Source of the DNA: Artemia franciscana
Lineage: Eukaryota; Arthropoda; Branchiopoda; Anostraca; Artemiidae
Assembly: GCF_032884065.1 (NCBI RefSeq)
Contig: NC_088872.1
Location: 10,279,654-10,343,653, forward strand
Direction: 5' to 3'
Length of the DNA: 64,000 nucleotides
The notes below the pieces were generated by a model. It had not been told where the DNA came from, searched no databases, and worked only from the letters and a program-made list of their open reading frames with translations. This document shows, in pieces, positions 24,605 to 63,775 of this stretch. Within the stretch, counting starts at the first letter, position 1. Every line of letters starts with the position of its first letter. The translations under genes and the position numbers were made by a program.

Positions 24605-25266
24605 TTATTCCACATTAGTAGGAGTTATCTTTTCATGGGTTTTCTTATGATAGTTTAAATTTGAGGCCTGGGTAAAATTCCTATTACATACTTCACACTT
24701 GTATGGTTTATCCCCTGTATGAATTCTTTGATGATATTTTAAACTCTCTGCTCGGGTAAATTTTTTGTTGCACATTTCACACTGGTAGGGTTTTTCCCCG
24801 GTATGGATTCTATGATGATGTTTTAAAGTTGAGGCAAAGGCAAAATTTTTATGGCATATATCACACTTGTAGGGTTTATCACCTGTATGGACTCTTTGAT
24901 GACATTTTAGACTTGACGCCTGGCTAAAATTTTTGTTGCACGTTTCGCACTTATACGGTTTTTCTCCTGTATGTCTCCTTTGATGTCTATCCAGGTCTGA
25001 AGCCCAAGGATAATTTTTCCCACATATTTGGCACTGATGTCGTCCATTAGCATTATATATTCTTCTGGCATAACTAGTCAATGAATAATCTTTGGGAAAG
25101 CTTTCTCTACATGTGTTATCACTTTCTGATTTGCAATGACTGCCATTTTGCTGATTGACATCATCCCTTTCACTTCCAAGACTCGGTTCATACAAATTTA
25201 AATTCGAGCTAGATGAAAGGACATCCAAAGACTCATTTTCGAACAGCGTTGGCCAAGCTTGAGATT
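24605..25266 (-). CDS. C2H2 zinc-finger protein, terminal exon with five fingers
   Basis: Begins after the - strand acceptor tactttctattttag and needs one G from the previous exon (phase 1, giving Glu). It reads E-S-Q-A-W, an acidic/serine-rich lead of about 80 residues, then five tandem C2H2 fingers with C-x2-C...H-x3-H spacing (Q-C-Q-I-C; Y-K-C-E-T-C; Y-K-C-D-I-C; Y-Q-C-E-M-C; Y-K-C-E-V-C), joined by T-G-E/D-K-P linkers. It ends N-V-E-stop. It is probably a nuclear DNA-binding transcription regulator (family inference). The - strand ATG within the lead (25292-25294) is intronic. Its 3' neighbour is the decayed finger array. Upstream exons probably lie at 40.1, 58.4 and 63.6 kb. Confidence 0.85.
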
Positions 25267-28200
25267 CTAAAATAGAAAGTACAATAAGCTTCAAAAGTTT
25301 AAAGATTTATTATCGAAGAGAATGATGTAGTGTCCCCTATAGTAAAGAGCAAATGTCTCCAATATGTTATTTTTTCTTCCAATGACTTCCAGTTGAATGG
25401 ATAATCTTTAAGACTTCAAAGCACGCTAGTTATATATAAAATTACGTTCTAATACCGATTTTCAAAAGTCAACAGTAATTAACCGACAGCCCCCCCCCCG
25501 CTGTGTCTATTATTACTTCTTGGTTCTTCATACCCTTCCATCAAATATCCAAAATATTTAATCAAAATTAAGGTCAAAATGTGTCCAGCTTTTGCTAGAC
25601 TCTGCATGGCTTTAGGCATGGACCGTCAATAAAATGCTAACTGCAAATTGTTTGCGTAAAAGTTTTACAACACAAAGGCTTGTTAGATGATAAGTGTAAA
25701 AATGAGGAGCTTTTTTTTAAAGTAAAGAGATGCTTACCAAAAATAACAAACAAAAAAGAAACACAACATGGGATTGCATACACAGCAAAAATATAGTGGT
25801 ATTCATAGCATAGAACATTTTAACAACATTCAGAGATGTAGCTAAGATTCACAACATCGCATACCACAACATTTCAATATGTACAATGATCACAGACACA
25901 GAATCCAACAATCTTGTTTTCAAAATTACCCTTCTCAGTAAAAGAGGCTTCATGTTCAGGTAATACAAGCACTTTGCTGGTGTAGAGATTTTAATATTGC
26001 TTTTTATCTCATTGTTTATGCTAGAAACCACTATAAACATGTCATCAGAGGCACCGCCCTAGCGGTATTCATGGTAAAGATTAATAAGGCTTTAATGTAT
26101 TTTGTTCTGCATAGTTCTGATTAGTCACGTTCTGCATATTATGATGTAAGAATTGTTTTCTTAACACGTTTCCTTCTCTCCAGTTCTCTAGGCAAATACC
26201 CAGAAAAGCATTTCCTTAGCATTATCATGTTTTGTTGCAATACAAGGTTAAATTGTTTAGTGTGCAGCATTAAAAATTCTTGCACAAAAAGTACCGCTTA
26301 TTTATGTTCGCGTGCCTGAATTCGCTTTACAAGATTTCATCAAAATCACCTACTCTAGATCTAGGCTAAGTTCATAGATTAAGCTGAGAGGTGACTCAGT
26401 TGGGAGTTCTAAACACTATTCAACCCAAACTTGAAACTTCCGGCACCATACGTACCTTCCATTATCTTTCAGAAGTTTCTCCACATTTGCAATTTTCTAT
26501 TTATTCTTCTGTTGTTCATTTTGTTGGTTTATGTTTTCTAAATCCTTTCTTCTAAAAAATACAGGCGAATACACATATACTTCAAAAAGTCCTCTGTTAA
26601 AATTGCATAACTGATACGCCAATTATGGTTCCAACAGAATAAAAAAATATGCAAGTTACGTCAAAACAGTTTTAACTCGTAGTATTACATGGGAGTGGGA
26701 TAAGCTAAAACGGAGTTCAGATTCAGAAAGAGCAAAAAATTTCACACTGGATGGCAGTGATAACTCAATTTCGCTTAGAAGTGCCTAATACGCCAATTCC
26801 GCTTCAAGATCACAGCAAAATCCTAGTTGGAATCACCATAGTCGTAAACCCAGTACAAGAGGATTACAGTCCACTGTTCCGAACACCAACAAAATTTAAC
26901 TTTTTGTACAATCGCAGTCGCCAGTAGTAACAATCGCAGGTAGTTACACTAACCTTCGTAGGTAGTTACAATCATAGTAGCGAATAATAGCAGTAGTAGC
27001 CGTCAGTCACAAAAGTCGCCGTCACAATAAGTCGTGGTCAAAGTCGTAGTCAAAAGCGGTCAAAGTAAGAGGTGCAAGTATTCATGGTCACATGGTTACA
27101 ATGATTACAATCATGGCTACAATAATCACAAGTAGTCACAGGCAGTACCAGTTGCACTATCAAAAAGTCGCAGTAGCAGCATCAGTGATGTTACGCCATC
27201 CCTAGGTACTTAGGTATTTGACCTTAAGTATATTTTTGAACTAAACGACTATATCAAAATTTTGATCGCATATCAGATGCATTTTGCGAGAGGATAGCTT
27301 AAAAAGCGAGAAAGTGAGAATGGTTTGCCTCCGATCATTTCTTACTCTAAAAAGACCACTAAAACTTTCAATTTCCAATCGAATGAGCCCTCGAGAGTAT
27401 TTACAGCCATCCCTTCAATATGAACGGGTTTTAGAAAAAAAGGTACATTGGAGGATTATGGCTATTTAATACAGGCAACACTGACACGTTGCCTTCGTTT
27501 TTACCACTTTTGTAAAGGAAGAAATCTAAAACCAAAAACAAACTTGAACAATTTTACTGACTTCACTTTGATCAATGAATCTAACGGAGATTAATACACA
27601 GTTGTCAGGCGTAAAATAGGTATATGGTTGTTAGTTACATTACTAAAAAGAAGTAATTGTTAATAGGAAATGTTAATAGACATACCAACTTTGGAAAAAT
27701 AAAAAATAAAGCCCTTCCACGTTTCATTTTTAATGATTTAGCACCTAAAAATCTAGATTCGAATGGTCTGTACGATTTCAGTTTTTTAAACCTAATTATA
27801 AGTATTATATTTTTCTTTTCTAGATTATATTAATAGAAGAAAACAAGGAAGGATCAAAAGAAAATTTTCAATCTTTTAGACTACTAGAACTATAGTTTAT
27901 CAGGTGAAATAATGAATTTATCTCTCTAGCCCTATGACCATCATAGTCTTATAGCCTTGAGAAAATTGCATATATTATTTTCCATCTGACATTTTTACCA
28001 TGTTTTAACTTTACATAGGTTACCATTAGGGCTAGAAGGGTCAAACAGTCCAAGTATTTATCTGCACAACAGCTTTCTAGCAAAAGCATATTAGAGAGAT
28101 TAAAGAACTTGCTAAAATTTTAAAAATAAAATAAAACAATTGCAAAGAACCAAATTAATTTTAATCTTGTTTAATAGAACTGAGAAGCACACATACTTGT

Positions 28201-28560
28201 GGAGAATTTTTTTTTCATTTAAATATTGAGGACGCCATGTAAAAAATTCACAATCTTCATGGAAAATGTTCGTTAGATTATTACCTATAATGGCAAGTAC
28301 ATATTATCTATGAATGTCATCATGTATTCACAGTCTGATGGGATCTATTTAAGTACAACACTGACAAAAGGCCAAAAATATGAGCGCCTTTTTCTTCTTC
28401 ACAAATAGATCTAGAACTTCTTTTATCGCTGCTTCATATTTGGAGCAGAAATTAAGGGGGAAAAGCGGGAACACAAAATATATTACGCTTGTTATATTGC
28501 AGAGGCTTGTTCTATAGTGTAGGTTCAAAGTCAACTTCAGGAGAAAATGTATCATACATA
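25267..28560. other. Intron or spacer, mostly featureless
   Basis: Probably the spacer between two zinc-finger exons. The only structure seen is a degenerate trinucleotide repeat at about 26890-27190. Open frames are short and lack motifs. Confidence 0.5.
26890..27190. repeat. Degenerate trinucleotide repeat (agt/gtc/aca)
   Basis: Iterated gtagt, gtcac, agtcgc and acaatc words over about 300 bp, imperfect throughout. A similar tag-rich tract is at 32940-33060. Confidence 0.7.
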
Positions 28561-28569
28561 CAAATACTG

Positions 28570-28993
28570 TCCTGGTATTTCTTCTCTATAGATTCTTCGA
28601 TATCTACTTAAATCCAAGCTTTCATATTCAAACAAGGTATTTACAAACATGCAACACGCTGAGATGGCTTATCCTCCACATACATTTTAAGATAAATCGA
28701 ATACTCAGTTCGGGTAAGATTTTACTGTCCATTTTACACTTGTAGCGTTATCTATGGATTCTTTGATAATGCTTTAGACCTGCTTCGAGGGTAAATTTTT
28801 AGCTGCATCAGCCACAATTCTAAGGTTTATCCCCTGCGTGAATTTTCGATGACGTTTCAAATGCGCTGTTAGGCTAAAATTTTTATTGCACGTGTCGCAC
28901 TTGTATGGTCCATCACTGGTATGTTTTCCCTGATGATGCTTTAAACTTGGAGCATGGACAAAATTCATATTGAATATATCACACTTACAAGGT
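28570..28993 (-). pseudogene. Frameshifted trailing zinc fingers of the second finger exon
   Basis: Immediately 3' of the stop of the exon at 28994, one extra base in a GGGG run shifts the frame. Reading on gives N-K-P-C-K-C-D-I-F, A-P-S-L-K-H-H-Q-G-K-H, Y-K-C-D-T-C-N-K-N-F-S and L-K-R-H-R-K, which are two further fingers. A second shift follows, then more wrecked fingers down to about 28600. The pair duplicates the last two intact fingers of the exon. Thus the original array was longer and was cut by the frameshift. Confidence 0.75.
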
Positions 28994-29838
28994 TTATTCC
29001 CCTGCGTGGATTTTTCGATGACGTTTCAAATGCGCTGCTTGGTTAAAATTTTCATTGCACGTGTCACATTTGTATGGTCTATCACTGGTATGTTTTCCCT
29101 GATGATACTTTAAACTTGGAGCATGGGCGAAATTTATATTGCATATATTACACTTGTGGGGTTTATCCCCTGTGTGGATTCTTTCATGATATCTTAAATT
29201 TGAAGCAAAAGCAAAATCCCTATTGCATACATTACATTTATAGGGTTTATCCCCTGAATGAATTCTTTGATGATTGTTTAGATTTGCTGCCTGGGTAAAA
29301 CTTGCATTGCATATGTCACACTTGTAGGGTTTCTCCCCAGTGTGGATTCTAATATGACGTTTTAAATTTGCTGTTTGGTTAAAATTTTTATTGCATATGT
29401 CACACTTATAGGGTTTATCACCAGTATGAATTCTCTGATGATATTTCAAATATGCTGGCTTACTGAAATATTTGTTGCATGTTTCACATTCGTACGGTTT
29501 TTCTCTTCCGTGCCTGGATGGATGACTGTTCAAGCCTGAGGGACGAGGAAACTTTACACTGCGTGCTTCAGACTTGTACATTTTTTCTCCGAGGTAACTC
29601 TTTTGATGTTTCCCAAGTTTATGATGCTTTACAGCATTTGAAATGTTTACTGAAGAGACCCGTTTCTTATTACAGGACGGTAAGAAGTATATACTTTTTT
29701 GGTAAGAAGTATTCCTTAAATCACTATTATCTCCCCCATTCGGTCGATAAACGGATCCCTTTTCCAATTTCGCATTTATGCTAGAGGATAGGGCTTCCAA
29801 ACACTCATTATTGAAAAACGCCAGCGAAGCTTGGCAAT
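28994..29838 (-). CDS. C2H2 zinc-finger protein, terminal exon with six fingers
   Basis: Begins after the same type of acceptor as the 24.6-kb exon (tactttctattttag), phase 1 with a G from upstream giving Asp, and reads D-C-Q-A-S. A lead of about 100 residues resembles the paralogue (E-A-L-S-S-S versus D-V-L-S-S-S). One degenerate finger (Y-K-S-E, first Cys lost) is followed by six canonical C2H2 fingers with T-G-D/E-K-P linkers. The stop at 28994-28996 follows K-I-H-A-G-E and results from a one-base frameshift, because fingers continue in another frame. It is likely a nuclear DNA-binding regulator. Paralogous to 24605-25266. Confidence 0.85.
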
Positions 29839-30234
29839 CTAAAATAGAAAGTACACTTAACTTCGGAACAAAGACATCAGAATAAATAAGAGGCATCGCT
29901 CTTGTCTTTCTTGACGTATATAACTCAATACCTTAAATTTATCATTTTTTTCCCTCCTGACCTCTTCGGTGCGAGGAGTTGATCACAAAAACTTCTAATG
30001 GGGGCTAGAACGATCGGATATTAAACTTCTGGCACCTTTTTCAGAATCGATAGTGGCTGAAGGACAACGAGCCTCCGTGCCATGCTCTTTGGAACCCTCC
30101 CTGTCGCAAACAATATCCTCCCAAAGGCATTCCATCAAAATTTGGAGTATGTCATTTAGATCAAAATAGTAGAAAGTTTAAAAGCTAGGATTATTAATAA
30201 TCTAAATTCCCAATTGTTTACAGATACAATTTAC
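29839..30234. other. No feature recognised
   Basis: Intronic or spacer sequence upstream of the finger exon. No motif or repeat recognised. Confidence 0.4.
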
Positions 30235-32615
30235 AATAAAAACAAGAGCTAAGAGCTCATATGGCACTTGTGATGAGGCTGGAAACGCTAAGAGCCAAGA
30301 GCTCATATGGTATGAGCTCTAACAAAATTCTAAGAATCAATAGATTGATTTAAAAGGCAAATCAGAGGCTTAATGCCAGTCGGGATTTAAAATAAGAGCT
30401 CTGAGTCACGAGATCTTTCTAAATACCAAAATTCATTAAGATCCGATCACCCACTCGAATGTTATAAATACCTCATTTTTTCTAATTTTTCCTCTCCCTT
30501 CAGCCCCCTAGATGGTCAAATCGGGGAAAACGACTTTATCAAGTCAATTTGTGCAGCTCCCTGACATACCTACCAATATACATCGCCCTAGCACGTCCAG
30601 AAGCACCAAACTCGCCAAAGCACTGAACCCACCCCTAACTCCCCCAAAGAGAACGGATCCAGTACGGTTACCTCAATCACGTATCTACGACATTTGTTTA
30701 TTCTACCCACCAAGTTTCATCCCGATTTCTCCACTTTAAGCGTTTTCCAAGATTTTCGGTTTCCCCCTCCAAGTCCCCCCAATCTCAACAGATCCGGTCG
30801 AGATTTGAAATAAGAGCTCTGAGGCATGAGTTCCTTCTAAATATCAAATTTCATTAAGATCCGGTCACACGTTCTTCAGTTAAAAACACCGCAATCTTTC
30901 TAATTTTTCCAAATTAACACCCCCCAGCTCCCCCAAAGAGAACGGATCCGTTCCAAGTATGTCAATCACGTATCTATAACTTGTGCTTATTCTTCCCATC
31001 AAGTTTCATGGCGATCTCTCCAAGATTTTCGATTTCCAATATTTCTGTATCCCCCTCCAACCCCCTATGTCCCTGGATTGGATTCGAATTGAAAATGGAG
31101 CATCTGAGACATAAGATCCTTCTATATATCAAGTTTCCTTAAGATCCGATCACCCATTCGTAAGAAAAAGATACCTAAATTATCACTTTTTCCAAGGATT
31201 CCGGTTTCCCCCTCCAGCTCCCCCCAATATCACCGGATCCGTTCGGGATTTAAAATGAGAGCTCTAAAGCACAAGATCTTTCTAAATATCAAATTTCATT
31301 AAGATCTCATCACCCGTTCGTAAGTTACAAATACCTCATTTTTTCTAGTTTTTCCGTATTACCCCCCCCCCCCCAACTCCACCAAAGAGAGCGGATCCGG
31401 TCCGGTTATGTCAGTCACGTATCTTGGGCTTGTGCTTATTCTTTCCGCCAAGTTTCATCCTGATCTCTCCGCTTTAAGCGTTTTCCAAGATTTCCGGTCC
31501 CCCCGCCCCAATGACACTGGATCCGGTCGGGATTTAAAGTAAGAGATCTGAGTTAAGAGGTCCTTTTAATATAACCTCATTTTTCTAATGTTTCAGAATT
31601 AACCCTCCCCCCAACTCCCCAAAAGAGAGCCAAGTTTTATCCCGATCCCTCCACTCTAAGCCTTCTCCAAGATTTTAGGTTTACTCCCCCCCAATGTCAG
31701 AGGATCCGATTGGGATTTAAAATAAGAGCTCTGAGTCACGATATCCATCCAAACATCAAATTTCATTAAGATCCGATCACTCCCTCGTAAGTTAAAAATA
31801 CCTAATATTTTCTAATTCTTCAGAATTAACCCTCTCCTCAACTCCCCCAAAGAGATCGGATCAATTCCGGTTATGTCAATCACGTATCTAGGACTTGTGC
31901 TTATTTTCCACCAAGTTTCACCCCGATCCCTCCACTCTAAGCGTTTTCCAAGATTTTAGGTACACCCCAACTCCCTTCAATGTCACCGGATCCAGTCGGG
32001 ATTTGGAATAAGAGCTCTGAGACACGATATCCTTCCAAACATCTAATTTCATTAAGATCTGATCACTCCTTCGTAAGTTAAAAATACTTCATTTTTCTAA
32101 TTTTTCAGAATTAACCCTCCCCCCAAACTCCCCCAAAGAGAGCGGATCCGTTCTGGTTATGTCAATCACATATCTAGGATTTGTGCTTATTTTTCCCACC
32201 AAATTTCATCCCGATCCCTTCACTCTAAGCGTTTTCCATGATTTTAGGCCCCCCAACTCCCCCCAATATCACTGGATCCGGTCGGGATCTAAAATAAGAG
32301 CTCTGAGACACGATATCCTTCCAAACATCAAATTTCATTAAGATCCGATCAACCGTTCATAAGTTAAAAATATCTTTTTTTCTAATTTTTCCGATTTAAC
32401 CGTCCCCCTCCCTCCCCCCAGATTGTCGAATCGGGGAAGCGACAGTTTCTAATTTAATATGGTATGGTTCCTGATACGCCTGCCCAATTTCATCATCCTA
32501 GTTCACCTGGTAGTGCCTGAAGTATAAAAACCGGGACAGACAGACAGACAGACCAACCAACCGACAGAATTTGCGGTCGCTATATGTCACTTGGTAGATA
32601 CCAATTGCCATAAAA
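30235..32615 (+). repeat. GAGCTC-rich interspersed repeat, complete-looking copy
   Basis: The 5' part has aagagctcatatggcacttg, then a perfect palindrome agagctcata-tgg-tatgagctct (30298-30320). About eight internal subunits follow, each marked by gggatttaaaataagagctc or a variant (30384, 30800, 31084, 31249, 31528, 31712, 31999, 32283), commonly about 285 bp apart, each with agatccgatcac, ggatccg and aagtttcatcccgatc landmarks. The tail has a gatggtcgaatcgggg-type block, a gacagacagacaga run and a terminal hairpin, ttggt-agat-accaa, before ccataaaaa. No protein is encoded. Class unknown; the two terminal hairpins and internal tandem structure would suit a non-autonomous rolling-circle or satellite-like element, but this is speculation. 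Confidence 0.8.
30298..30320. other. Perfect 10-bp palindrome at the 5' end of the GAGCTC repeat
   Basis: agagctcata, loop tgg, tatgagctct. The identical 23-mer is at 45761-45783 in another copy, so it is conserved within the family. Confidence 0.85.
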
Positions 32616-33554
32616 AGGGGGTGTCTGATGATAGGTCTATAATTGAGTAAAAATTTTAAAGGTCAATCTCAGGTTCAAATGGATTAAAAATTTGCAAACT
32701 AAAAAGGGACCAAACATCGTTTTTCTCCAATTAGCATGAAACTTTAAGGGTTAGTTAACTGCACAACAATTAACTACACTTCGTGATGACAATAAACTTA
32801 GGGAGAAAAGTACGCCTATATCTATTCTTAGTTCCTGAAGCATCTTGATACGTCCTCGTTGTGATGAAGTTCAACCCCCCCCCTCCCACCGGCAAAAAAT
32901 TCTAGAAAATTTCAGCTTCATACCCTTAGGCATAGCTGTAATAGTAGTAATAGTAGCAGCAACAGTATTAGCGCATTGCATTTACAAGTAGTTGCAATAG
33001 ATGCAGTAGTAGTAGCAATTGCAACAGTGATAGAAGTATTAGTTGTAATGTACATATATTACACTTTCCATCAGATGATTTTCCTCTTTTAGCATTCTCT
33101 GAAAGTTCAAACTTAATGACCAACTCAATTCTTCAGATACGTTCTTTTGACAATACACATGTACATAGCGTCTTTTGATTTAGTTCACATTTCCCCACAA
33201 TATCCTAAATGGCGTAGTGTGGTAGTAGTAGTACTAGTGGTAGCAGTACACCAGGGGTATCATACAAATATTCCTTTTTATCATCCCCCTTATCATTCCT
33301 GAAGGTTCCAAATTAATATACGCAGTAATTCATGAGTTACGCCCAATCCGTGAACATAACATGTTTTGGTTAGTTCAACACTCCCTTCGGCATTAATAGT
33401 ATGGGCCAGATGGGGCTCATGAGAACATCATTAGCATAACTGTATTAGCACAAAATTTGGGTGAATGACCAACATATTCCTGCCAGGACTTGATTAACAT
33501 TCATTCGACCTTCACTGAATAAGAAGAATGATCAGTTATTATAATACTTACTAT
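32616..33554. other. Spacer with tag-type trinucleotide tracts
   Basis: Imperfect gtagtagtag/gcaacag tracts at about 32940-33060 and 33217-33250. Otherwise no feature recognised. Confidence 0.55.
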
Positions 33555-34195
33555 TCAGGCCATGACAATTATACGAATATAATACTTATTTGGGTTGTAT
33601 GAAACTGGTTTTGACATGCGCTTGGGTAAAGTAAATCGCATTTTATAATACGAACCGAATTTCAATGAATTAAAAAGTGGCAAATCTGCTACCCTTTTTT
33701 TTCTTGCGACAAGCGCTTGTGTAAAATAAACTAGCAAACTTAGTTCCCCAATGGTTGTGAAATTTTTTAGAGGGAACTTATTGTCATCCAAGTTCCAACT
33801 CCAAGGGCCCCGATTTTTTACCTACCTCCATTTTTTGAACTCAAAAAATTTTTTCCATTTGTTTTGAGATTTTTCATAGGCCAGAATTTTATCTTTCTTA
33901 TTGAAATTCTAATACAATGGGAGAGAATGACATTTGAATGCCTCGTTGTTTACTCTAAGAGGTGAAACCAAGATCAGAAGATTTTTTGACATTTTTCATG
34001 GGCCAGAATTTATTTTTCTTAATGACACTCTAATAACAGGGGAAAGAATGACAATTGAATGTATTTACACTAAGAAGTGAAACCAAGACCAGAGGAGTTT
34101 TTTGAAATTTTTCATAGGCCAGAGTTTATTTCTCTTAATGACATTGTAATACAATGGAAAAGAACGGCAATTGAATACCTAGCTAATCCATTTTC
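33555..34195. repeat. Interspersed repeat with ~115-bp subunits, copy 1
   Basis: Shares with 36960-37630 the blocks ggtaaagtaaa, attttataatacgaa, agtggcaaatctgctaccc and agagggaactta. It then has three to four tandem subunits bearing ttttcataggccaga and gaatgacaattgaatg (about 33870, 33987, 34108). - strand open frames here are shadows of the repeat; both copies give similar but meaningless peptides. Confidence 0.75.
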
Positions 34196-40087: not shown

Positions 40088-40255
40088 CTTCGTTGCTACT
40101 AACAGTTAAATCAAATTGAGGACGATCAAAATTGGACTCAAGCTTTACAGATATACTTGTTGAAACAGCCAAAGGATCTTCCTCCATCTGCGATAAAACA
40201 GCAAATGAAGCCTCAAAACCGGAAGGATTTTCATTTTGATATACGTCTTCAATTT
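40088..40255 (-). CDS. Acidic linker exon of a zinc-finger gene
   Basis: A 168-nt exon on the - strand between acceptor ttttttag and donor gaag/gtaagt. Both boundaries are phase 1, so its length is an exact multiple of three. With an upstream G it reads E-I-E-D-V-Y-Q-N-E-N-P, later L-S-Q-M-E-E-D-P-L and S-V-K-L-E-S. It is homologous to the exon at 58400-58570 (E-V-E-D...L-S-P-K-Q-E-D-D-S-L). V-K-L-E fits the SUMO-acceptor consensus. The nearest downstream finger exon is at 29838. It is likely an interdomain segment of a C2H2 regulator; expression is not shown. Confidence 0.65.
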
Positions 40256-48660: not shown

Positions 48661-48797
48661 TGGCAATTTTACAGTAAACTCCGCCTGTAATCATACAGCC
48701 AGTCCCAAGCCTGGATAAAGGAGGAGGGTTTGGCGGCAGACTAGCAGCCTGCCCCTAAAAAAAGATTTGCCATAGAACCGTCTAATTGAGAGCCAAC

Positions 48798-49883
48798 ATG
48801 ATACCGACTATGCAACCTGCCGACGACTATGGACCGCCCCCGGACTCCTTGACGACGAATTCGGACCGCCCCCGGACACGATTTTTGAAAACGAATTGCG
48901 AAATTAAACTTGGTTTTTGGAACGTAAGGACCATGGTTCAACTTTCTAAAACTGAACAGGTTGTGAATGAGATGGACAATTATGGCCTTGACATCCTAGC
49001 TCTGTCGGAAGTCCGTTGGACTGGTGCAGGTAGTCAAACCCTCAAGAAGGGATCCACAATCCTGCACAGTGGCACAGAAAAAAAGAAAGAAGCAGGCGTC
49101 GCCATAATGCTGTCGAAATCTGCGTCCAGAGCCCTAACGAAATGGACGCCTATAAATGAGAGGATCATCGTGGCACGGTTCACAGGTCGCCAAGCTAAGT
49201 TAACAGTAGTCGCATGTTACGCACCAACTAATGAGGCAGACGATACCACAAAAGATAACTTCTACAACACCCTACAAGCTGTCGCCAAGGATATCCCCAG
49301 CCACGATCTCGTCTGCTTTGTTGGTGACTTCAACGCCAAGGTGGGGAGCGACAAGTCCTATTGTCCTGAGGTTCTTGGGAGCCAAGGCCTCGGCGAAATA
49401 AATGAGAATGGGATACTGTTAGTTGACTTCGCACTAACAAATGATCTTATCATCGGAGGAACCCAGTTTCAGCATAAAACTATCCACAAATACTCATGGA
49501 ACTCGCCTGATGGTCGAACCCACAACCAGATTGACCATATCTTGATCAACAAAAAGTGGAAGTCAAGCCTTCAAGATGTAAGAGCCCACAGAGGAGCCGA
49601 CGTCGCCTCAGACCACGCCTTGATGATTGCAAAGCTGTCCCTCAAACTGAAAGCCACAAAAAAATCCCAAACCAAAGAGAAACCTGCCTACGACTCTGAA
49701 AAGCTCTCAAACGCAGCAGTTCGTCATAGGTTCAACATACAGCTTACAAACAGGTTTGAGAGCTTGGCCCTAGATTTGGATAGAGAAGCCACTGTGGAGA
49801 CAACCTGGGCCACCCTAAAAGAAGCCTACAACCAGACAGCAATAGAAACAATTGGGCACAAAAAAAGACCCAAAGACGAGTAG
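48798..49883 (+). pseudogene. RTE-like ORF, endonuclease part (ends at nonsense codon)
   Basis: Apurinic-type endonuclease domain that nicks target DNA for target-primed reverse transcription (family knowledge). Visible motifs are L-G-F-W-N-V-R-T (metal/substrate Asn), S-E-V-R-W-T-G (catalytic Glu), F-V-G-D-F-N-A-K-V-G (Asp/Asn), I-D-H-I-L-I-N and A-S-D-H-A-L-M (terminal Asp-His). All key residues look present. The first ATG after the upstream stop region is 48798. It stops at TAG (49881-49883) in the linker, where the same frame goes on as L-S-D-K-T-W. Databases often label such proteins craniofacial development protein 2-like. Confidence 0.85.
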
Positions 49884-51575
49884 TTATCCGATAAGACATG
49901 GACCCTTATCGAAGAGCGTCGGAAACTAAAACAACGTCTTCTAAATGAAGGAGATAACAGCGACACAGTCTTGAGTAACCAGCTGTATCGATACCAAGAC
50001 AAGCTGGTGAAAAAGAGCGCAAGGGGAGATAAACGGAACTTTCTAGAACAAAAGGCAGCTATGGCAGAAGAAGCGGCCAAGCGCGGCGATTCCAGAGCCG
50101 TCTATAAAATCACCAATGAAATCATCGGGAAACGTCGCAACCTAAATGGACCAGTAAAAGACGGAAACGGGAAGACAGTCACAGCCCCCGATGAAATCTC
50201 TGAAGTTTGGGCCCAACACTTCGAGAAAGTTCTCAACCGACCTAGTCCTCCGAACACAGCAGATATCCCCACAACCCCTTTCCTGGAACTTCAAATCAAT
50301 ACGGAAGAACCGTCAACCGAAGAACTGGTACAAGCCGCTCGCAAACTGAAGAACGGCAGGGCACCAGGAAGCGACAAGATATCAGCAGAAATGATTAAAG
50401 CCTCTTTAGGCGCTTGCATAACTGTGTGGATCACATTCTTTGCATGTATATGGAAATCAGAGAAAGTCCCCGAAGAATGGAGAAAAAGCACACTCATCAA
50501 GCTTTTTAAGAAAGGAGATGCAGCAAAATGCGATAACTGGAGGGGCATCAGTCTCCTTTCTATCCCGGGGAAACTATTCTCACAGATAATCCTTCGTCGC
50601 ATCCAGACAGCCTTAGATAAGCACTTGCGAGACGAGCAACATGGCTTCCGCCCATCCCGCTCCTGCTCCGACCTTATATATGTCCTACGCATGATGATCG
50701 AGGAATGCAATGAATGGAGGCAAAAGATGTACCTTGTCTTTGTGGATTTCGAAAAAGCCTTCGATTCAATACACCGAGATTCGCTGTGGAATATCCTCCG
50801 ATATTACGGCATTCCAGAAAAACTTGTATCCTTGATCATTGCCCTATATGAAAACACCGAGTGCTGCGTTCGGACCCACGAAGGAAATACAAGGTATTTC
50901 CATATCATGTCCGGTGTCAAACAGGGGTGTGTCCTCTCCCCCTTGCTTTTTATCCTTGTAATCGATTATGTGCTCCGAGACTGCACGGGGTTTGGTATCC
51001 AAATCTGCGACAACAAACGACTAGCAGATCTTGATTTCGCCGACGACATCACCCTGATGGAAGCAAACAAGGAAAGGCTCCAGGATCTTCTCGAAGTAAT
51101 CCGAGAGAAAGCGAGTCTATTGGGACTAAAGATCAACTCGGACAAAACAAAAAGCATGGCAACGAGCGACTCACCACTGGGCTTAAAGTGCGGGGACAAT
51201 ACAGTAGAGCAGGTAGTGGATTTTAGATACCTTGGAAGTACAGTCGAACGAACTGGATCCAGCGAAAAGGAGGTGCAGTCTAGGATTGGACAAGCCAGTG
51301 GAGCTTTTAATCGACTAAAGCCAGTGTGGCGATCGAAAAAGTACTCCCTGAAACTGAAAATGAGGCTGTTCAACAGTAACGTCATCTCCGCCCTCCTTTA
51401 TAGCTGTGAATGTTGGAAACTAAACCAACACCAAGAAAAGAGGATTCTTGCCTTCGAGAACAACTGTCTTCGCAGAATACTGAACATTAACTGGAGAGAC
51501 CACACAACCAACCAGACTGTTCGGTCTATCTCGCGCCAGCCCCTGGTAACAGATGTCATACGCCAACGAAGATGA
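49884..51575 (+). pseudogene. RTE-like ORF, reverse transcriptase part
   Basis: Same frame as the endonuclease part. RT motifs in order: W-R-K-S-T-L-I-K-L-F-K-K-G-D, N-W-R-G-I-S-L-L-S, E-Q-H-G-F-R-P-S-R-S-C, F-V-D-F-E-K-A-F-D-S (motif A, catalytic Asp), S-G-V-K-Q-G-C-V-L-S-P (motif B) and D-F-A-D-D-I-T-L-M (motif C, 51033-51059). The catalytic aspartates are intact. The thumb/C-terminal region has F-R-Y-L-G-S and N-N-C-L-R-R-I-L. It ends V-I-R-Q-R-R then TGA (51573-51575) where the family has Trp. Confidence 0.88.
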
Positions 51576-53336: not shown

Positions 53337-53339
53337 TCT

Positions 53340-54860
53340 TCGAAAAATCAAATAATATTGAATTTTTCGATCCTCTTTGCCTACCGTATGCTATTTACAC
53401 GCCTCCCATTAAAAACTTTCTTCAGGAAAGTGGAAACTCTATTATTAAAAATCGGATACGAGTACAAAATTAATCAACCAAAAGCTGTGGTTTTCATGCA
53501 TTATTAAATTTTATTCTTCGATGTCGTGGATATATTTACAATGAATTTCTCAGCACTTATGGTGACAATCCTTGATTGAAAGACATTCTACTTGAAAATA
53601 CTCTTTTATATCTGTATAACATAAATTTTAGTGCCCTAAGAGTAAAACGCTTTAAAAATGTATGTGAATTTGTTTATTAATAAAACGTCTATGTACAAAA
53701 GTCTGTTTCCTTTAGATTTCTTCTTCCACATATAGGTAACAATCGTTAATCATAAGTAGCGGCAGCTCGTCAGGATTCAACTTGTTTCATCTTGCCATGC
53801 AAAGTCAGGGTCACACTTTATACAATATAATGTAACTTCATTTTTATTTTATCTCTTCGTGAAGTTAATAATACTATTTTGATTCATGTTATAAAATTCA
53901 CGTGTTTCAAATTGCTTATTTAAATCAATTTCACACACGAAATTTAGAAGAATCACTTTGTGTAACAACCAAATAAAAATCATTAGGTTGATAATCATAT
54001 CAACCGGTACCTTCACAGCGATGTCAAGAAAACCAGACTCTCTTACTATTCCAGCAATTGAAGCGTAAACTTGGTTCTTCCTCCCAAAACAATTTAAAAA
54101 CACGACGATGCCAGTCTCTTAAAAATAAACTGAAATCACGTTTAAGGTTTTTTGCAGCCTAGTATACCTCTAGTATGAGTCACAAACATTTTCAGGACAG
54201 GAATTAGAATCTTTAATTTACACTACGTATCCTCTAGCCAATTTACATGGATTGCATAATATAGCCTTTTCATTAAAGTCATCAACAATAGTACAGTTCT
54301 CTCGGGATGACCAGGTGCTCAATGTATACAAACATAATAAACACGTGTAAAAACAATTCTATGTTGACTGTTTCGCTTCCAAAAAGAAAACGGCTCACAA
54401 TAAAATGAATGTCTTCTAGGAGAAGGAAGGATCGAGTGCCGTCACAAAACATATTTGGACAGGATTTTTTTAAATATCGACTTATTTCTTGTTGTCTTGC
54501 AAAATGGCCGTCTAAAACGAATACCTAGGAAGTGGTTAAAAGGAAAACCACAATATCATTTTGTTTTGCTTGAATTAATAAGTCAATAAATTGAGTAAAT
54601 ATATCTGGACCACGACACATAAGTCTTGGACAATAACTCCAAAGACAGAAACTCATTTTTTATTATAAGGTCAATCATTCTCTTAGTAAGGATTCTCTTC
54701 TGCACTGATAATCTTTGAAAATTATCATCTATAATTAACTGTCAGTAGAATCCGTATGATTTTTTGCTTCTCAAATCCAGTCATTTTTAATCTTGACAAT
54801 CTCACTACCGACTAGACTAACAAGGATGCTCTCTCGATAGTAACAAACTTACTCCTTTTT
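53340..54860. other. No gene recognised
   Basis: AT-rich spacer. The 84-codon - strand frame at 53849-54103 shows no domain and no convincing splice sites. Confidence 0.45.
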
Positions 54861-54862
54861 AT

Positions 54863-55181
54863 TCACTGATTCAGACCGTTTCCTTCAATATATTTTACTA
54901 ATGCATTTAATCCGTCTTGTAAACTTTGTATATGCATTATATTCACTTCTGCTACAAAGCATAACTGTTCTTCCGACTTGAAGTTACTTAATGGTATTAC
55001 ATATCGTGCGAACATATCCCATTCTAGAGCTAGCCGGCAACCCCTTGTAACTTCTACAACTACGTTAGGCACTCTGGGTTTCCTTTCACCATTGCTAGCG
55101 GCTTCAATGTCCAATAGAGTAAACGCATCCATTACTAAAGAATAATATCCTTGATGTTGACAAACTGGACTCTTTTGAATA
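54863..55181 (-). CDS. Possible terminal exon of an unrecognised gene
   Basis: - strand, open from acceptor ttgcttcag (exon start 55181) to the stop at 54863-54865, about 106 codons: I-Q-K-S-P-V-C-Q-H-Q-G-Y-Y-S-L, then M-D-A-F-T-L-L-D-I-E-A-A, V-V-V-E-V-T-R-G-C-R-L-A-L-E-W-D-M-F and S-L-Q-D-G-L-N-A-L-V-K-Y-I. Composition is balanced and looks coding, with GC slightly higher than its flanks. I do not recognise a family. It could be a host exon (within the intron span of the zinc-finger locus, same strand) or a mobile-element remnant. An internal ATG at 55132 is an alternative start. Confidence 0.4.
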
Positions 55182-56089
55182 CTGAAGCAAATCTACTAGC
55201 TCACGCATCGCTGACCTTCAAAACCAGTTTTTACCAGATTACAAAAGGTCCACCGGAACCAAAACCAGCCACGTAGGATTGCGTCATCTTCAAATGTAAA
55301 TATTGGACCATGATAATTTTTTAACCGAGACTTCTCTGCTTGACTAGTGGACTCTAACATTTCCTTTTACGTAACATACACCTGCATCTCTTAGAAAACA
55401 TTCCCCATTACGTAAGATACAGGTGTACTATACCGTTACACATGCGCTATAGTATTGCGTAAAATCCAGGTGTGCGCATTAGCGTCCCGAGGGGCTAGAA
55501 GCTTTAAAGTAGACCCTCCAATGCTGTTGCTGCTTTAGGGTAAGAGGGCCGAGAGAAGTGAGAGACATTATAGTCAAGGCTATGCAGGGTCCTAGGCAGG
55601 TGTAGTATTCTGTTGTCTACAGGTGACAGACAACAGGCAAGAAAAGGTTGTTGAATAACATTCTTCCAAGAACTAGGTGGAATTCTGAGTAAAGATAAGC
55701 GTAGGTCACTCTTAAACCTACATAAAACTTCAAGCCAAAATTAGATTTTTAGAACTTTCTTTTTCTTTGAGAAGGAGGATTCTTTTAACCAGTGACTTAG
55801 CGATAAAAACATTAACTGAATTTGGCAAAGAAAGCTTTATGACTTGGAAAAACATTGAAATTTTATGATGAAGTACGAGTTGATTAAACTGTCACATTTA
55901 ACAGAACGTTGATATCAGTTAACCGGTTAGCTGCACGATACTTGATTTAAAATGAGGTTTTACTACGTGAGATGTAATTAATATTGAATGAGATGAATTT
56001 GGTTTGAATAGAACTTGATTAAGCTAAATGAGGCCTGAGTTGAGGATGGTGATGTTACATGGTTATCTTTGATATCAAACCTTGGTTTT
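55182..56089. other. Spacer; minor hairpin only
   Basis: No gene recognised. A nine-base stem, ctgttgtct with agacaacag, lies near 55610-55636. Confidence 0.4.
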
Positions 56090-56241
56090 TTTAAAAGTTG
56101 AATTCAATTAATGACAGTCAATGTCATGTTCGAACTTAGTACACATGCCTCATGAAAATATCGAAGAGCTATCTTCCTGCTTAGGCAATAAAAAGTGATT
56201 AAAAACATATTTGGTTTCAACTGAGAATGTGTATTTAATCT
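56090..56241 (-). pseudogene. Decayed copy of the acidic linker exon
   Basis: - strand after acceptor-like aaatttttcag: (G)AG-I-K-Y-T-F-S-V-E-T, L-L-P-K-Q-E-D-S-S-S, a TGA stop, then C-T-K-F-E-H-D. It aligns with the linker exon at 58400-58570 (T-F-P-I-E-N; L-S-P-K-Q-E-D-D-S-L; Y-T-E-F-E-P-D). The intron side also matches (gaacccacacaag versus gaacccagacaag). The internal stop and lack of a clear donor show it is dead. Probably a local duplicate. Confidence 0.65.
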
Positions 56242-56603
56242 CTGAAAAATTCCTAGCAGATTCACGGTCAGAACCCAGACAAGGAATTACATTAGCTGTT
56301 CTTTTGAAACTACAAAACAGAAAAGTGACAATTTCATATGATCAGAAACACTTTCAAAGACCTACTTTCAAAGAAAAGACTAATGCCGTTTTCACTTTAC
56401 AGAAAGACCATTACAACAAATACTAACAAATGATGTTAATACGAACTTGTTTCTCAATTAATCCTCATGCCGGGGTGGCTTTGAGTGTAGTAAGCCTTCT
56501 CAACCTGGGGCGAACAACAGCAAGGGCCCATGCAACAGACATAAAAGTCCGGCTTGGTCTAAGAATTTCCCGAGATTGTCATTTCACCAGAAGTTAAGCT
56601 TTG

Positions 56604-56675
56604 TGACAGTGTAGTGGATAAAACCGCGCTTAGAAACTACCAGGACGGAGGTTCAATACCGCCTGTTGCAAGGAA
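56604..56675 (+). other. tRNA pseudogene or SINE head
   Basis: gacagtgtagtggataaa resembles an A-box and ggaggttcaataccgcc a B-box/T-arm (ggttcaatacc) with one mismatched stem pair. Spacing is tRNA-like, but acceptor and anticodon stems do not pair well. It lies immediately upstream of a LINE fragment. Confidence 0.4.
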
Positions 56676-56709
56676 AATTTTTATTTTGTTCCGATTTTGT
56701 AAGTTTTTT

Positions 56710-57250
56710 TCACAGGAGGCTATGGACATCATCACAATCAAAAAGCAGACGAAACTGCGGAGGGATATGAAGACCTATCGACATCTCTTCGGCACCAACA
56801 TTAAAATTATACATAGAGGTCTCAAGTCGTTTGTTGACGGCAAAGCAGATGAGCTATAAAAAGCTGCCACGAGGAAGATCGTTGGAACAGTGTAAACACT
56901 AGCGCGACTTCACTGTCCCGTGTGCTCAACCAATAAGAAACGTATTATCTGCGGACAGGGTGATCCTTGAAGACATAGTATCCAACATTTCAAGGTGAAA
57001 TGAACACTTCTCATCTCCGCTGAACGCAACGCCTCTCTCTCTCTCTCTCCATCTGTAACAACTCCTGGCATCTCCCAGCCTGTGATCCATAACAACCTCG
57101 TTAATGTTGACACTGAACCTTTTTCAGTGATAGAAATTCAAAATGTTGTGGAGAAACTGAAAAACTGCTAAGGTCCCGGCATCTAAGGAATCTCTGCGGA
57201 GCTTCTCAAGAGTGGTGGCGGCACTATGCTGCCATGGCTCCAAATCCTAT
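56710..57250 (+). pseudogene. LINE linker/RT start fragment
   Basis: Frame pieces: V-D-G-K-A-D-E-L, then N-N-L-V-N-V-D-T-E-P-F-S-V, then I-E-I-Q-N-V-V-E-K-L-K-N-C, stop, G-P-G-I, stop, G-I-S-A-E-L-L-K-S-G-G. The last block is the K-L-K-N-x-K-A-P-G-x-D-x-I-x-x-E-x-L-K region at the start of non-LTR reverse transcriptases. It is cut off at about 57250 before the catalytic motifs. A (ct)n run lies at 57033-57048. Confidence 0.7.
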
Positions 57251-58399
57251 TTATTTTCAATTTCTTTGTAATTTTGTTCAGCTTTATTATTCTATTCATT
57301 TTAATGAATTAGATTAAAGAAGAAAACCTAAATAAAAAAACACTTCATTTTCACTCAATTATCAACGTACAATTTTCTCTGTTTAGGTTTTATTTTCTTA
57401 AAGTATAGCAATCTCTATCCTATTAAAATAGATTTAATATTAAAGTAAATTTTACTCGCCTAAAACTTTAATTTTACATAATTTGCTAGTTTTTGTTAAA
57501 TCTTATATAAAAATTATTTACATTTCATCATATATAGCAATTCCTATAATTATTAGAAGGATTACATCATACGTCAAATTTGACCGTCTTATATTTTAAT
57601 CTTTAAGTTCACATTAATAGAAATAACTTGCAATCAATTTTAAAGTTATTGCGGCAATCCAAGTTCAATGATGCTCATGTGAAAACTGTCTACAGAAAGA
57701 ATAGTTATTGGAACGTCTTCAATAGTAATTGAGACAGTAATTGAAAGTCTGCCTTGGAGTAAGAAGGGTATTCACATGCAAAAACTTAACAGTTTATCTC
57801 ATGCAAGTCTTCATATCAAACAAGGCATAATCTAGTAATATTATGAAAGCAAGTTTTCTCTGAGGACTAGCGGCATCCAAAGAGATCGAGAGTAAATTAA
57901 CCTTTTTAATTTTTACTGCATTTAAAATAATTAAAAGAAAGTGCAGCTCAAATAGTTCTTCTGTTGTTCGAAAACACTAACACAAAACAAACAGCTTCTG
58001 ACTGTCTGATGCCAAGGCTAAGAATGACTCTAGGCACGTGCAGTATGCAGAACTAAATTGCTCTTTAACCCCGAGCTAAATCTTTAGCTCACATTAGGCC
58101 AACTATATTTTTCTATCAGCTACTTTTGTGTATTGAGGATCTCTTGACAAATGAAATTAGCAATATAGGCTCCAAGCCACTAGGAAACAGAAAAATAATT
58201 ATTGTTATTTTGGGAGCCCTGTCAAAATAAACTCTCCTTTAAAATCCCAGTTTTAGATTTAGATGAATGTTTTATTATCACATATGAGGAGATCAAACAA
58301 TCAAAATTTAACAAAATGTAGAAGAGAGTAGAATGAGGTTAACAGCATGAGATTCAGTTAAATGGGTTTTGTTTTATATGGTCACCATTGATAATATAC
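57251..58399. other. No gene recognised
   Basis: AT-rich spacer upstream of the linker exon's donor side. Nothing supportable. Confidence 0.4.
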
Positions 58400-58570
58400 C
58401 TTTGTCTTTGACAGCAGCAAGAGCCAAGTCAGGACTGTTTGAATCAGGTTCGAACTCTGTATATTTATGGTGCGAATTCATCAAAGAATCGTCTTCCTGC
58501 TTCGGTGATAAAACCAGATTTGTACTACCGAAAACCGGGTCGTTTTCAATTGGGAATGTGTCTTCAACTT
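58400..58570 (-). CDS. Acidic linker exon of the zinc-finger gene
   Basis: A 171-nt - strand exon between acceptor tttttttcag and donor aaag/gtatat, phase 1 on both sides (57 codons). It reads (G)AA-V-E-D-T-F-P-I-E-N-D-P, L-S-P-K-Q-E-D-D-S-L-M-N-S and T-E-F-E-P-D-S-N-S-P-D. It is homologous to 40088-40255 and to the decayed copy at 56090-56241. Joined to the upstream exon at 63646-63775 it completes I-K-Q-E, a SUMO-acceptor consensus, across the splice. Probable interdomain segment of a C2H2 regulator. Confidence 0.65.
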
Positions 58571-58867
58571 CTGAAAAAAACATCTAGCATAAATTCACAT
58601 TTAGAACCCACACAAGAAAGTGAATCTCTAACCATTATAAAAAAAATAATGAAAACACAAAAAACAGACAAAAAAATAAATAAAATGCCTTTAATGACTT
58701 ACTTTCAAGAAAATAATACTACCACTACTACTACCAATTCTTTAATCTTCGGCAATCCGTCATGCTTCATCCGCAGAACGTGCACTAGCCATCTCAACCT
58801 TTCTGTCACTTTTTACCCTTGAAAGCAGGATTGAACCACACTTTTCGTACAGCCTACTGTTTAACAT

Positions 58868-60345
58868 TTAGTCAGTCAGCGGGATACCCAGAATAATTAG
58901 TAGGCATTTTGTCTGTAAAATATCTAGAAAAACTTCATCCGCTTTTCGAAGCGCCCATTCTTTAGAGCCATATTTCACCACTGTCATCACTGTAGCTTCC
59001 AATATTCTAATCTTGGTTTGCAGGCTTATCTTCCTATTCTTCCCGACCTTTATCAACTATGAAAAAAGACCCTGGGCCATGGCTATTCTACTTTTAACAT
59101 CTTCACTGCAACCACAGTCTTTACTAAGAATACTACCTAGATAGGGGAAGCTGTCCACTTGATCGATCTTGTCGTTACCCAACATCACTTTTCAACTTCA
59201 CATAGCGACTTAAGTCTTCTTAAAATAATTTTCAAACCTATTTTTGCACCCTGAACTGGCGAAACCTCTAAAAATTCATTCATTTTGCTAAGAATTTCAT
59301 CAAGGATTCTTAAATCATGAGAATCGTCAAAGTCAAGGAAAGTTTTACTTCCTCACCTGATTCCATGTTCTCCCAATGCAGTTTCCGTGCTTCTTAGGAC
59401 AAAATCCATCAAAATGATCCATATAAATGGGGATTGAACGCAGCCCTGCTTAACTCCTTCTTTAACATGAAACCAACAATTAACATCATTGCCAAATGTA
59501 ACCACGGCAAGGTTATGCTCGTACATAGCACTAGTCAGTTGGATGTATTTGTCTGGTATACCATACAAAGCTAGTACCTTTGTTAATGCTCTTCTATCAG
59601 CTGAATCAAACACTTATTCAAAATCTATCAAACTGAGAATTTTTGGCGTTTGATAATTCAGGCACCTTTCAATTATTAATCTAAGAGTGAAAATTTGGTC
59701 AAAGCATCCTCTACCCCTCCTAAAACCACACTGCTCTTCTCTTAAAGCTTTATCTAAAGCATATCTAAGTCTAATTAATATAATCATACTAAGTAATTTG
59801 CTTCCTATGGAAACCAGGCTAGTGCCTCTATAATTACCACACGCACTCTTATCAACTTTCTTACAGAGGAATGTAATTACAGATCTCCTAAAATTGTTAG
59901 GTATTTCCCCTCTTTCAAAATTATATTAATAGTCTTTCTTCAGTAGCTACGTGGCATCTCTAACCACGTAAATGCCATATTAAGGAAACTCATTTACCAC
60001 ACTATCAGCACCTGGGGCAGTATTATCTTTCAAACCTTTTAGTGCTGCCATTAATTCTTCCTCAAAAAATAAAGCTTCCCTCACATCCAAAGTGTCACAA
60101 ACTTTTTCGTTCTTCTCTCTATCTTTCCTGTAAATTTATCACGGTTTAGTGCATTCTAAAAAATGTTTGCTCATTCTTTACTTTTTCTTTATCGCTGATT
60201 ATAGTCCCATTTAAATCTTTAACTGAGAAAGTCCTGATTTACTATTCCCTCTAAACTTATTAATAGATCAGTAAAATAGTTTACTATTATACCGTCTGGC
60301 TGCCTCTTGCGTATCTTCGACAATTTTATCCATGGCCTCCCCTTC
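58868..60345 (-). pseudogene. RTE-like LINE reverse transcriptase, copy A
   Basis: Read on the - strand from about 60345: linker (E-A-M-D-K-I-V-E-D-T), G-N-Y-R-G-T-S-L-V-S, E-E-Q-C-G-F-R-R-G-R-G-C, S-L-I-D-F-E then a stop then V-F-D-S-A-D-R-R-A-L (motif A), G-V-K-Q-G-C-V-Q-S-P (motif B), a decayed motif C, and K-N-R-K-I-S-L-Q-T-K-I-R-I-L near 58990-59050. It ends L-G-I-P-L-T-D-stop at 58868. Several stops and indels. A different RTE-like family from the element at 48.7 kb. Confidence 0.85.
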
Positions 60346-60349
60346 ATAC

Positions 60350-61480
60350 TTCCATTATTCATGTTTTGATACTCCCTCCACTTTCTTTACAAATATTCTG
60401 GTGCATAGCACAATCACTTTAGTATACTTATCTGGTATACAATACAAGTATGCTACCTCTAAAGCTTTTCTATCAGCTGAACCAAATGCCTGTTCATTGT
60501 TTATAAACAGAAGACAGAAAGAGCTTAACAATTCTAAAATTTGTCGATAATCAACTTGAAAATGAAAATTTTGTGAAAATGAAAATTTAGACACAACATC
60601 TCACTTTTCTAAAACCTAACTGTCCATCCCTTAAAGCTTATCAACGCCATCTCTTAATCTAATAAATATCATCAAGATGTGTAGTTTCCTTCCTACTGAT
60701 GAGTCTAATACCTCTATAAGTACAACACTCAATATTTATCACCTTCCTTACAAAGACATTTAATCATTGATTCTCAGGTACTACCCAATTTTCTAAATTC
60801 ATATTCATAATATTTAGTAATTTATCTTAGCTTCGTAATTATACATTCCAAAGCTCATGTACCAAACTATCTGCACCTAAGGCCTAATCCTTTTTTATCT
60901 GTTAGTGTTGTCTCTAACTCCTGACAAGACAAACTCCCTTCAAATCCAAAATTTTGAAACTTTTTCATTCTTTTTTATTTCATTTCCTAGAACTTACCAC
61001 CATTTAGCAGATTCCATTGCCTCTTTAACTTTCTTCATTACTAATTGTAGGCCCCATTCCTACTACATCCTTTCAACTCCTTACATTTATAACATCTTCA
61101 TTATACCACCTGGCTGTATTTTCCTGACCCTCATAAATTTGATTTATGGCCTAAATTTTACATATCCTTAATTCTCGTTTTAATAGATTTCCTACTTCCC
61201 TTCATTCCCTGTTATTCAATGATCTGTAACTCAAAAAACTTATTGTACAAATCCATACTCTTTTCTACTAAGTTTAGGACATTTTAAAAAATATTCCTTG
61301 TTGGATGTCTAACTTTCCTTCCTATGCCACTTTCAATTACTACACAAACCATTTTCCTAAAAGAACTTTGTCGATCTTTTTCAGTTTCATTTTTTGAACT
61401 CTCCAGTTCCATATTCAACTCTCCTTGGAGAGTTCTTATCAAATTCAAATCATATAGCAGTGGCAACTGCAATAAGAGAG
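60350..61480 (-). pseudogene. RTE-like LINE, copy B (5' part, more decayed)
   Basis: - strand: L-Q-G-E-L-N-M-E-L-E-S and F-R-K-M-V-C-V-V-I-E-S-G-I-G (endonuclease-RT linker, 61284-61472), a wrecked middle, then N-E-Q-A-F-G-S-A-D-R-K-A-L and Y-C-I-P-D-K-Y (motif A region, about 60430-60510). It breaks off where copy A's linker begins, so the two copies stand in tandem in the same orientation. Many stops. Confidence 0.75.
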
Positions 61481-61894
61481 GACAGAGAAAGAATTTTAAA
61501 AAATACAGTCCCTCTCCCCCAACATGTTCAAATATTGCTGCGCCACTGTCCTGGAGTCTATCAAAGCCATAACTTCACAGACATTTGTAGCTTAGCCTAA
61601 CCTTTAAATTTAGATTATCTTTAAAAACTACTGGATGGTAATCCTTACTTTTAGTATTACCAACAGCCCTCCTATATACAATAATCTATTACTTCAGTCC
61701 TGCTGGCATTTGCTTAACAATAACATGATTAATAAGTTTGACTGTCTTACCATCGTGTGACTACCACTTTTATGATCATTTCATGACTTAAAGATTATGC
61801 TGGTTATAACTACATTAATATGCATACAAAATCGCAACAGTTTATGGCCATAGCTAATTTCCTTCCCTAGATCCAATTTACGGCATTAAAATCC

Positions 61895-63229
<1,335 letters not shown>

Positions 63230-63470
63230 CATTCTGTCACTATTTTTGTTGTTGTTTTTTCCACACAATTTGCTGCCAATTAATGACAATGTCTGTTTTT
63301 TGCTATATCAATAAAGAAAGTTGCACAATCTAGACCTGCAAGATGATATATTTTTGTTCGCTCATTTCCTGCTGATTTCTCAACCACGTTCTTTACTTTT
63401 CAACTTGGCACCAGCTAAGTGTTAAAACTGGATATCTGCAGCTAACATCCTTTGCATTAAAAACTGATAT
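63230..63470. repeat. Old dispersed repeat, copy 2
   Basis: Diverged match to 1990-2230 in the same orientation, with the same order of landmarks (ctgccaatta; gctcatttcctgctg; aaaactg). Class unknown. Confidence 0.5.
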
Positions 63471-63645
63471 TCCAAGTTTTCTCGATTTTTTTAGACGTAG
63501 CCTATGGGAGTGCAAGTTTCCACTCAACCTATTTAAAGACTAATACTTCATTTTTAGTGTGTTGAGTGCTTAATATATTGAGCCAAGAATTAGTTCAAAA
63601 TGGAAACTATCATTTCTAATCTATATAATTAGATATACCAATTAC

Positions 63646-63775
63646 CTTGTTTAATAGTGGCGTGCAGCGGAAGTTCAATTGTATCCATTATTTCCACAAT
63701 CCAATTTATGATGAAATTACTCTTTTTGGTGGTTTGATGGATTTTTGCCTCCTGGTGACTCCTGGTCTTGAAAAT
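63646..63775 (-). CDS. Probable first coding exon of the zinc-finger locus
   Basis: - strand exon between acceptor atttttcag and donor acaag/gtaatt. ATG at 63686-63688 (complement cat) gives M-D-T-I-E-L-P-L-H-A-T-I-K-Q plus one G, phase 1, matching the phase of the linker and finger exons. Such short N-termini ending I-K-Q-E are common in arthropod C2H2 regulators. The frame is also open upstream to the acceptor, so an earlier start in another exon is possible. Same strand as all the zinc-finger pieces. Confidence 0.5.

Follow-up and report, generated by a model that had tools for sequence, protein, structure and literature searches.

A likely zinc-finger gene with two alternative ends, and its family of linker exons, in Artemia franciscana

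The window analysed here is a stretch of 64,000 nucleotides from Artemia franciscana (assembly GCF_032884065.1, contig NC_088872.1, positions 10,279,654 to 10,343,653 of the forward strand; the contig is called C10 below). Its minus strand carries a zinc-finger locus for which five exons meeting at phase-1 junctions had been predicted: a head exon, S, two linker exons, LA and LB, and two finger exons, FA and FB. The sequence borders confirmed all five pieces. AG/GT borders were found at each of them and every junction from S onward was in phase 1. S (63646-63775, 130 nt) is preceded by AG and leaves through a phase-1 donor, G|gtaat; an ATG lies within it at 63688-63686 and the encoded start is MDTIELPLHATIKQ. 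The linkers LA (58400-58570, 171 nt) and LB (40088-40255, 168 nt) begin at AG|AA, end at a G|gta donor, are phase 1-1 and, as predicted, are exact multiples of three. FA (28994-29838) and FB (24605-25266) are alternative last exons, both preceded by AG and closed by a TAA stop, with six and five C2H2 fingers of full pattern, respectively. We joined an upstream exon plus S, or S from its own ATG, to no linker, LA, LB or LA and LB, and each of these to FA or FB. All 16 combinations constructed in this way gave a single open reading frame, i.e. any linker can indeed be joined to any finger set.

A protein search with the spliced head, the linkers and the start of FA (210 of 408 residues scored) yielded 338 candidates, three of them at E<=0.1. 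These three were NCBI models from Artemia franciscana, and they were identical letter for letter to three of the exon combinations. P0006 (isoform X1, ZSCAN2-like, 446 aa) consists of the upstream exon, S, LA, LB and FA; P0007 (isoform X4, ZNF184-like, 347 aa) of S, LA, LB and FB; P0008 (isoform X5, ZNF184-like, 329 aa) of the upstream exon, S, LA and FB. The isoforms X2 and X3, if they exist, were not among the separate entries found. All three models contain LA, and S either whole or from its own ATG. The coding part of the upstream exon (C10:10365135-10365161, encoding MRIRSKESY) is located 21.7 kb upstream of S, beyond the window, so that the coding span of the gene is about 61 kb. The presumed start exon S is internal in two of the three models. 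Because three models equal three combinations, one gene with two alternative last exons has already been predicted by NCBI: at the level of gene models a common 5' part with S and LA is joined to FA in P0006 and to FB in P0007 and P0008, as expected for one locus with alternative DNA-binding ends. The locus itself is therefore already modelled; the wider result is the family of linker exons described below.

Despite the ZSCAN2-like name the Pfam list of P0006 contained zinc-finger families only, with no SCAN domain, and membership in the SCAN family was rejected on this ground. No BTB domain was present among the Pfam families of P0006, P0007 and P0008; the one BTB-head match listed on C10 is at 44.4 Mb, 34 Mb from the locus. 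A search of a plasmid collection with P0006 returned five records with finger matches below 60% identity and nothing useful.

The two finger exons were compared at the DNA level. The best local match between the FA and FB regions (74% over 455 bp) lies in the fingers and extends past the FB stop; a second, separate match (78% over 85 bp) runs across the acceptor. The acceptor sequence, predicted to be shared, was identical over 17 bases up to the AG (tgtactttctattttag). Over 214 codons dN was 0.39 and dS 1.10, a dN/dS of about 0.36. Ahead of its six fingers FA has finger-like sequence from which the cysteines have been lost. In C2H2 proteins the contact residues of a finger relate to its DNA target. 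Since the six fingers of FA and the five of FB have no four-residue contact set in common, different targets are expected, and by this general recognition rule FA and FB would read different DNA. Finger remnants, recognized by sequence and DNA matches, continue past the FA stop (28736-28993, minus strand) with an AATAAA at 28887; an AATAAA follows 107 nt after the FA stop and 519 nt after that of FB. Past the FB stop lies a tandem array (22771-24579, minus strand; main period 228-230 bp) with units that match decayed zinc-finger sequence. It is minisatellite-like, with matches of 93-96%, and holds an ATTAAA at 24345 and an AATAAA at 24086.

Compared directly, LA and LB match weakly (76% over 51 bp); the predicted homology was clearer alongside other linkers. 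LA occurs in each of the three models and is followed by LB in two of them, while LB without LA occurs in none. Hence the proposal of alternative linkers was not upheld: the models place LA and LB in series, with LB skippable. As the linkers are phase 1-1, gain, loss or skipping is possible without a break of the frame. A decayed linker copy with an in-frame stop is situated between LA and LB (56123-56242, minus strand; 44% identity to LA by tblastn, E 6e-4, and a DNA match). LB carries VKLE, a SUMO consensus. The LA-LB intron also contains a LINE-like element on the plus strand (48786-51575), with endonuclease and reverse transcriptase frames in register and one stop between them.

Loci with an S-type head were also found on the contigs C5, C6 and C16. 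On the minus strand of C16 (S-type gene at 5708615) S, one linker and a finger exon give an open product of 493 residues. On the plus strand of C16 S, two linkers and a finger exon give an open product of 552 residues with 11 fingers; the two linkers join in series and omission of either preserves the frame. The C6 locus has S and one linker, followed by two finger arrays, of which the nearer has stops and the farther is open over part of its length. These arrays are in tandem (10929349-10930568 and 10934134-10935782) and may be a parallel to FA and FB. The C5 locus has S, three linkers, of which two contain stops, and a finger exon with a reading frame that ends early. Thus the related loci hold one to three linkers, and across the loci serial or dead linkers and repeated finger exons turn up more than once. 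Linkers flanked by a head and a finger exon, both in phase 1, were found at C10 and at both C16 loci, and in part at C5 and C6. The recurrence of the order S-linker-finger at separate loci, together with the match of the combinations to three gene predictions, is more than chance.

A common property of these loci is a motif created by splicing. At C10 IKQE, a SUMO consensus, is formed at the S-linker junction only after splicing. The original prediction expected this of each combination; it is correct for every combination with a linker, but a direct join of S to FA would read IKQD. We scanned for an in-frame ATG followed by KQ|G-GT, leaving the residue before K free. One such site per locus was detected at four loci, all on the gene strand; the 448 kb of strand sequence scanned, from 224 kb of DNA, held no further one with an in-frame ATG. 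The residue preceding KQ was I at C10, L at C6, V at C5 and V on the minus strand of C16; because KQ had been demanded in finding C6 and C5, its conservation at these two is in part built into the search. The fifth S exon, on the plus strand of C16, was found by tblastn without the KQ condition and reads VKQ. Thus the four other S exons (C5, C6 and two on C16) end in [I/L/V]KQ, and a linker completes the SUMO consensus. At all five loci the first linker whose acceptor is intact supplies E as the residue after the junction; the second linker on the plus strand of C16 starts with D. IKQ|E and VKLE are predicted SUMO attachment sites. In 104 kb of C10 around the locus the scan, which requires KQ|G-GT, detected one S exon.

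A second kind of head was found on C16. A search with the product of the minus-strand C16 gene (100 of 493 residues scored) yielded two proteins at E<=1 among seven candidates, P0009 (ZBTB6-like X4) and P0010 (Kaiso-like X2). Both are Artemia models on C16 and are distinct from the query product itself (60% identity). In both, a BTB domain (Pfam E 5e-21) precedes a series of two or three linkers, and the finger part behind them opens with GIYASPP. The same start is present in the minus-strand S-type gene of C16, and GIYASPS in the plus-strand gene. The exons of the BTB gene are at 5670301 (BTB), 5672259, 5675880, 5680316 (L0), 5681627 (L1), 5687010 (L2) and 5690019, where the finger part begins, all of them upstream of the S-type gene (5708615); the linker placement is read from the model and the linker borders. 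The first residue of L1 is E after the BTB part and K after L0, consistent with phase 1. In the models linkers are serial both here and at the window locus, and BTB head exons stand on C16 where C10 has S. When the P0010 linkers served as query (168 of 557 residues scored), P0009 and P0010 were the sole matches at E<=10 among 330 candidates. The BTB head itself belongs to an expanded family: it had 109 matches in the Artemia genome at E<=0.001, 22 of which, its own included, had at least 70% identity from residues 1-3 to 196-199; matches were on C16, C15, C63, C7, C14, C2 and others. A weak linker match at C15:38210503 (E 1.6) has a BTB head some 10 kb upstream.

The linkers were then sought genome-wide. 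The query combined two linkers with the start of a finger exon. It matched 68 times at E<=10 and 40 times at E<=1, a rough count from 102 scored candidates in which E<=10 admits about 10 chance matches and two of the 68 are finger-exon starts. Outside the studied loci were 55 of the 68, and splice sites were checked for the best 20 of these by E-value. In the match frame a phase-1 donor G|GT was present in 19 of 20, an acceptor in 15 and both in 14, i.e. by the phase rule five matches lacked an acceptor and one a donor; several of the 20 are near-identical and do not count as independent cases. The other two frames had acceptors in one and two of 20, respectively, and neither a donor nor both sites in any. 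The 14 complete exons measured 165-177 nt, their lengths being multiples of three because the phase rule allows no others; in six of them the later of two in-frame AGs was chosen and the exon is possibly one codon longer. LA and LB fit this family in length and in having phase 1 at both ends. After exclusion of stop-bearing copies and of the six of 20 matches without both splice sites, 22 distinct linkers were compared. All 22 were net acidic. KxE occurred in 21 of 22, with 42 sites versus a shuffle mean of 7.9 (reached in 0 of 2000 shuffles), and the strict motif [VILMF]Kx[ED] in 12 of 22 versus a shuffle mean of 3.4 (12 sites in 0.05% of shuffles); these tests are inflated by the shared descent of the linkers, which are not independent, and this has to be held against them. 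Nine linkers (LA, LB and seven others) were scanned against Pfam. None matched a family above the cut-off and none contained KRAB, and membership in the KRAB family was rejected accordingly. A DUF7397 match in one linker (22 residues, 17.4 bits versus a cut-off of 27) was taken as chance. A linker profile had no match in the PDB at E<=1.

Two further features of the window are on the plus strand. An open frame at 902-1783 with DEAD and helicase C domains is part of a likely DEAD-box helicase gene, and a long simple repeat at 7442-7954 has an open frame reading (Ile-Tyr)n. An Rfam scan of the window gave no match at gathering score.

The five pieces are probably exons of one 61-kb zinc-finger gene in which the head, S and LA with LB optional, is spliced to either FA or FB. 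The end would be chosen by cleavage at a poly(A) site after FA versus splicing past FA to FB, and the end chosen would determine the DNA target. S-linker splicing would create IKQ|E, and inclusion of LB would add VKLE as a second SUMO consensus. Via these two motifs the head would likely recruit SUMO-dependent corepressors, and inclusion of LB would tune their number. AlphaFold2 assigned pLDDT values below 50 to residues 1-278 of P0006 and of about 60-80 to the fingers. This suggests that the shared amino part may be a flexible arm, acidic through its linkers and predicted to be disordered; as the alignment held three sequences, low confidence only suggests disorder, which is a first point against the proposal. 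Several others have to be added. The NCBI models from which the one-gene structure is read are predictions, and the different names of the FA and FB models (ZSCAN2-like versus ZNF184-like) could mean two gene records. AATAAA or ATTAAA occurs 23 times in about 8.3 kb of this AT-rich DNA, and because they are so frequent the hexamers alone prove little. The interior of LA has no strict SUMO motif, and dN/dS ranged from 0.35 to 1.33 across 15 linker pairs, i.e. constraint is weak. Finally, decay may be under way in part of the locus, given that each finger array stops at decayed fingers and that one of the linkers is dead.

Could FA and FB instead belong to two tandem paralogous genes, as was considered in the original prediction? 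The FA gene would then own S, LA and LB, the head of the FB gene would have decayed or been missed, and the joint models would be read-through products or artefacts. FA and FB do resemble tandem copies of one exon, acceptor included, their models bear different protein names, a decayed linker is nearby, and at C6, too, there are two finger arrays, with stops in the nearer one. On the other hand, the KQ|G-GT-dependent scan found a single S exon in 104 kb of C10, and P0007 and P0008 connect S and LA to FB. The differing names are no mark of separate genes, because the BTB models on C16 share head and end and yet are named differently. We consider two genes unlikely.

Somewhat less probable still is a locus mostly in decay, one of an expanded family, whose transcripts yield no needed product. 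The dead linker at 56 kb and the finger remnants past both stops would agree with this, as would the C5 locus with stops in two of three linkers and an early closing finger frame. Against it, none of the five exons has lost its open frame or its splice sites, the full C2H2 pattern is kept in six plus five fingers and the FA-FB dN/dS is about 0.36. That LA and LB are mutually exclusive is very improbable and was rejected on the gene models: both are phase 1-1, and either alone preserves the frame and yields IKQE, yet LA and LB follow each other in two of three models and LB alone occurs in none, the BTB models on C16 have two or three linkers in series and the plus-strand C16 gene has two, in frame.

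With one gene with two ends as the preferred reading of the locus, a broader and more tentative proposal, which we hold to be possible and somewhat short of an even chance, is that Artemia carries an undescribed family of effector modules. These would be acidic, KxE-rich linkers of about 57 residues, encoded by phase 1-1 exons scattered in the genome and reused behind two unrelated heads, BTB and the short [I/L/V]KQ| head, which would turn into a SUMO site only on joining to a linker. The family may have evolved by exchange of whole exons, with linkers multiplying in series, heads being exchanged and finger exons duplicating into alternative ends, and may have a KRAB- or FiNZ-like role in silencing in this lineage. 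No description of the linker family was found in literature searches, and a search combining Artemia, C2H2 zinc finger and BTB domain had no match. The term 'zinc finger' did not occur in the available main text of two Artemia genome papers (PMC10827361, PMC11492255). An Iso-Seq study of Artemia, in the portion available, lists sex-biased zinc-finger isoforms without detail (PMC8465105). With its serial, frame-neutral linkers, two kinds of heads and duplicated ends the Artemia family shows how zinc-finger families may assemble exon by exon. It is a case for asking whether linker number or the choice of end alters repression and targets. A further lesson is that a single connected family can be concealed by database names such as ZSCAN2-like and Kaiso-like.

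How does the locus compare with known systems? The KRAB, FiNZ and ZAD families each have their own effector exon, originated separately in several lineages and are in some cases tied to transposon control. Like KRAB and FiNZ genes the window locus has a short acidic 5' exon ahead of a finger-array exon and many lineage-specific copies. Unlike in these, the linkers can be serial, one head serves two finger exons and KRAB is absent from the nine linkers scanned. For the FiNZ genes of cyprinid fish the text available describes a short acidic exon before the finger exon and derepression of transposons upon knockdown (PMC10547256). The other comparison, proposed at the outset, is with Drosophila lola. 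Common 5' exons with alternative zinc-finger last exons are known from tramtrack and broad, and the window locus shares this layout with lola. In lola, according to the part of the report available, common BTB exons are joined to unique ends in at least 20 isoforms (PMC1947980). Compared with the about 20 ends of lola there are two here, and unlike lola the window locus has a repeated family of linker exons between head and fingers and no BTB. The alternative-last-exon layout of the prediction thus fits, whereas a BTB domain occurs in a relative on another chromosome, C16, which joins related linkers and a related finger-exon start to a BTB head. We regard the locus as a variant of the lola layout that lacks BTB and draws on an undescribed family of linker exons.

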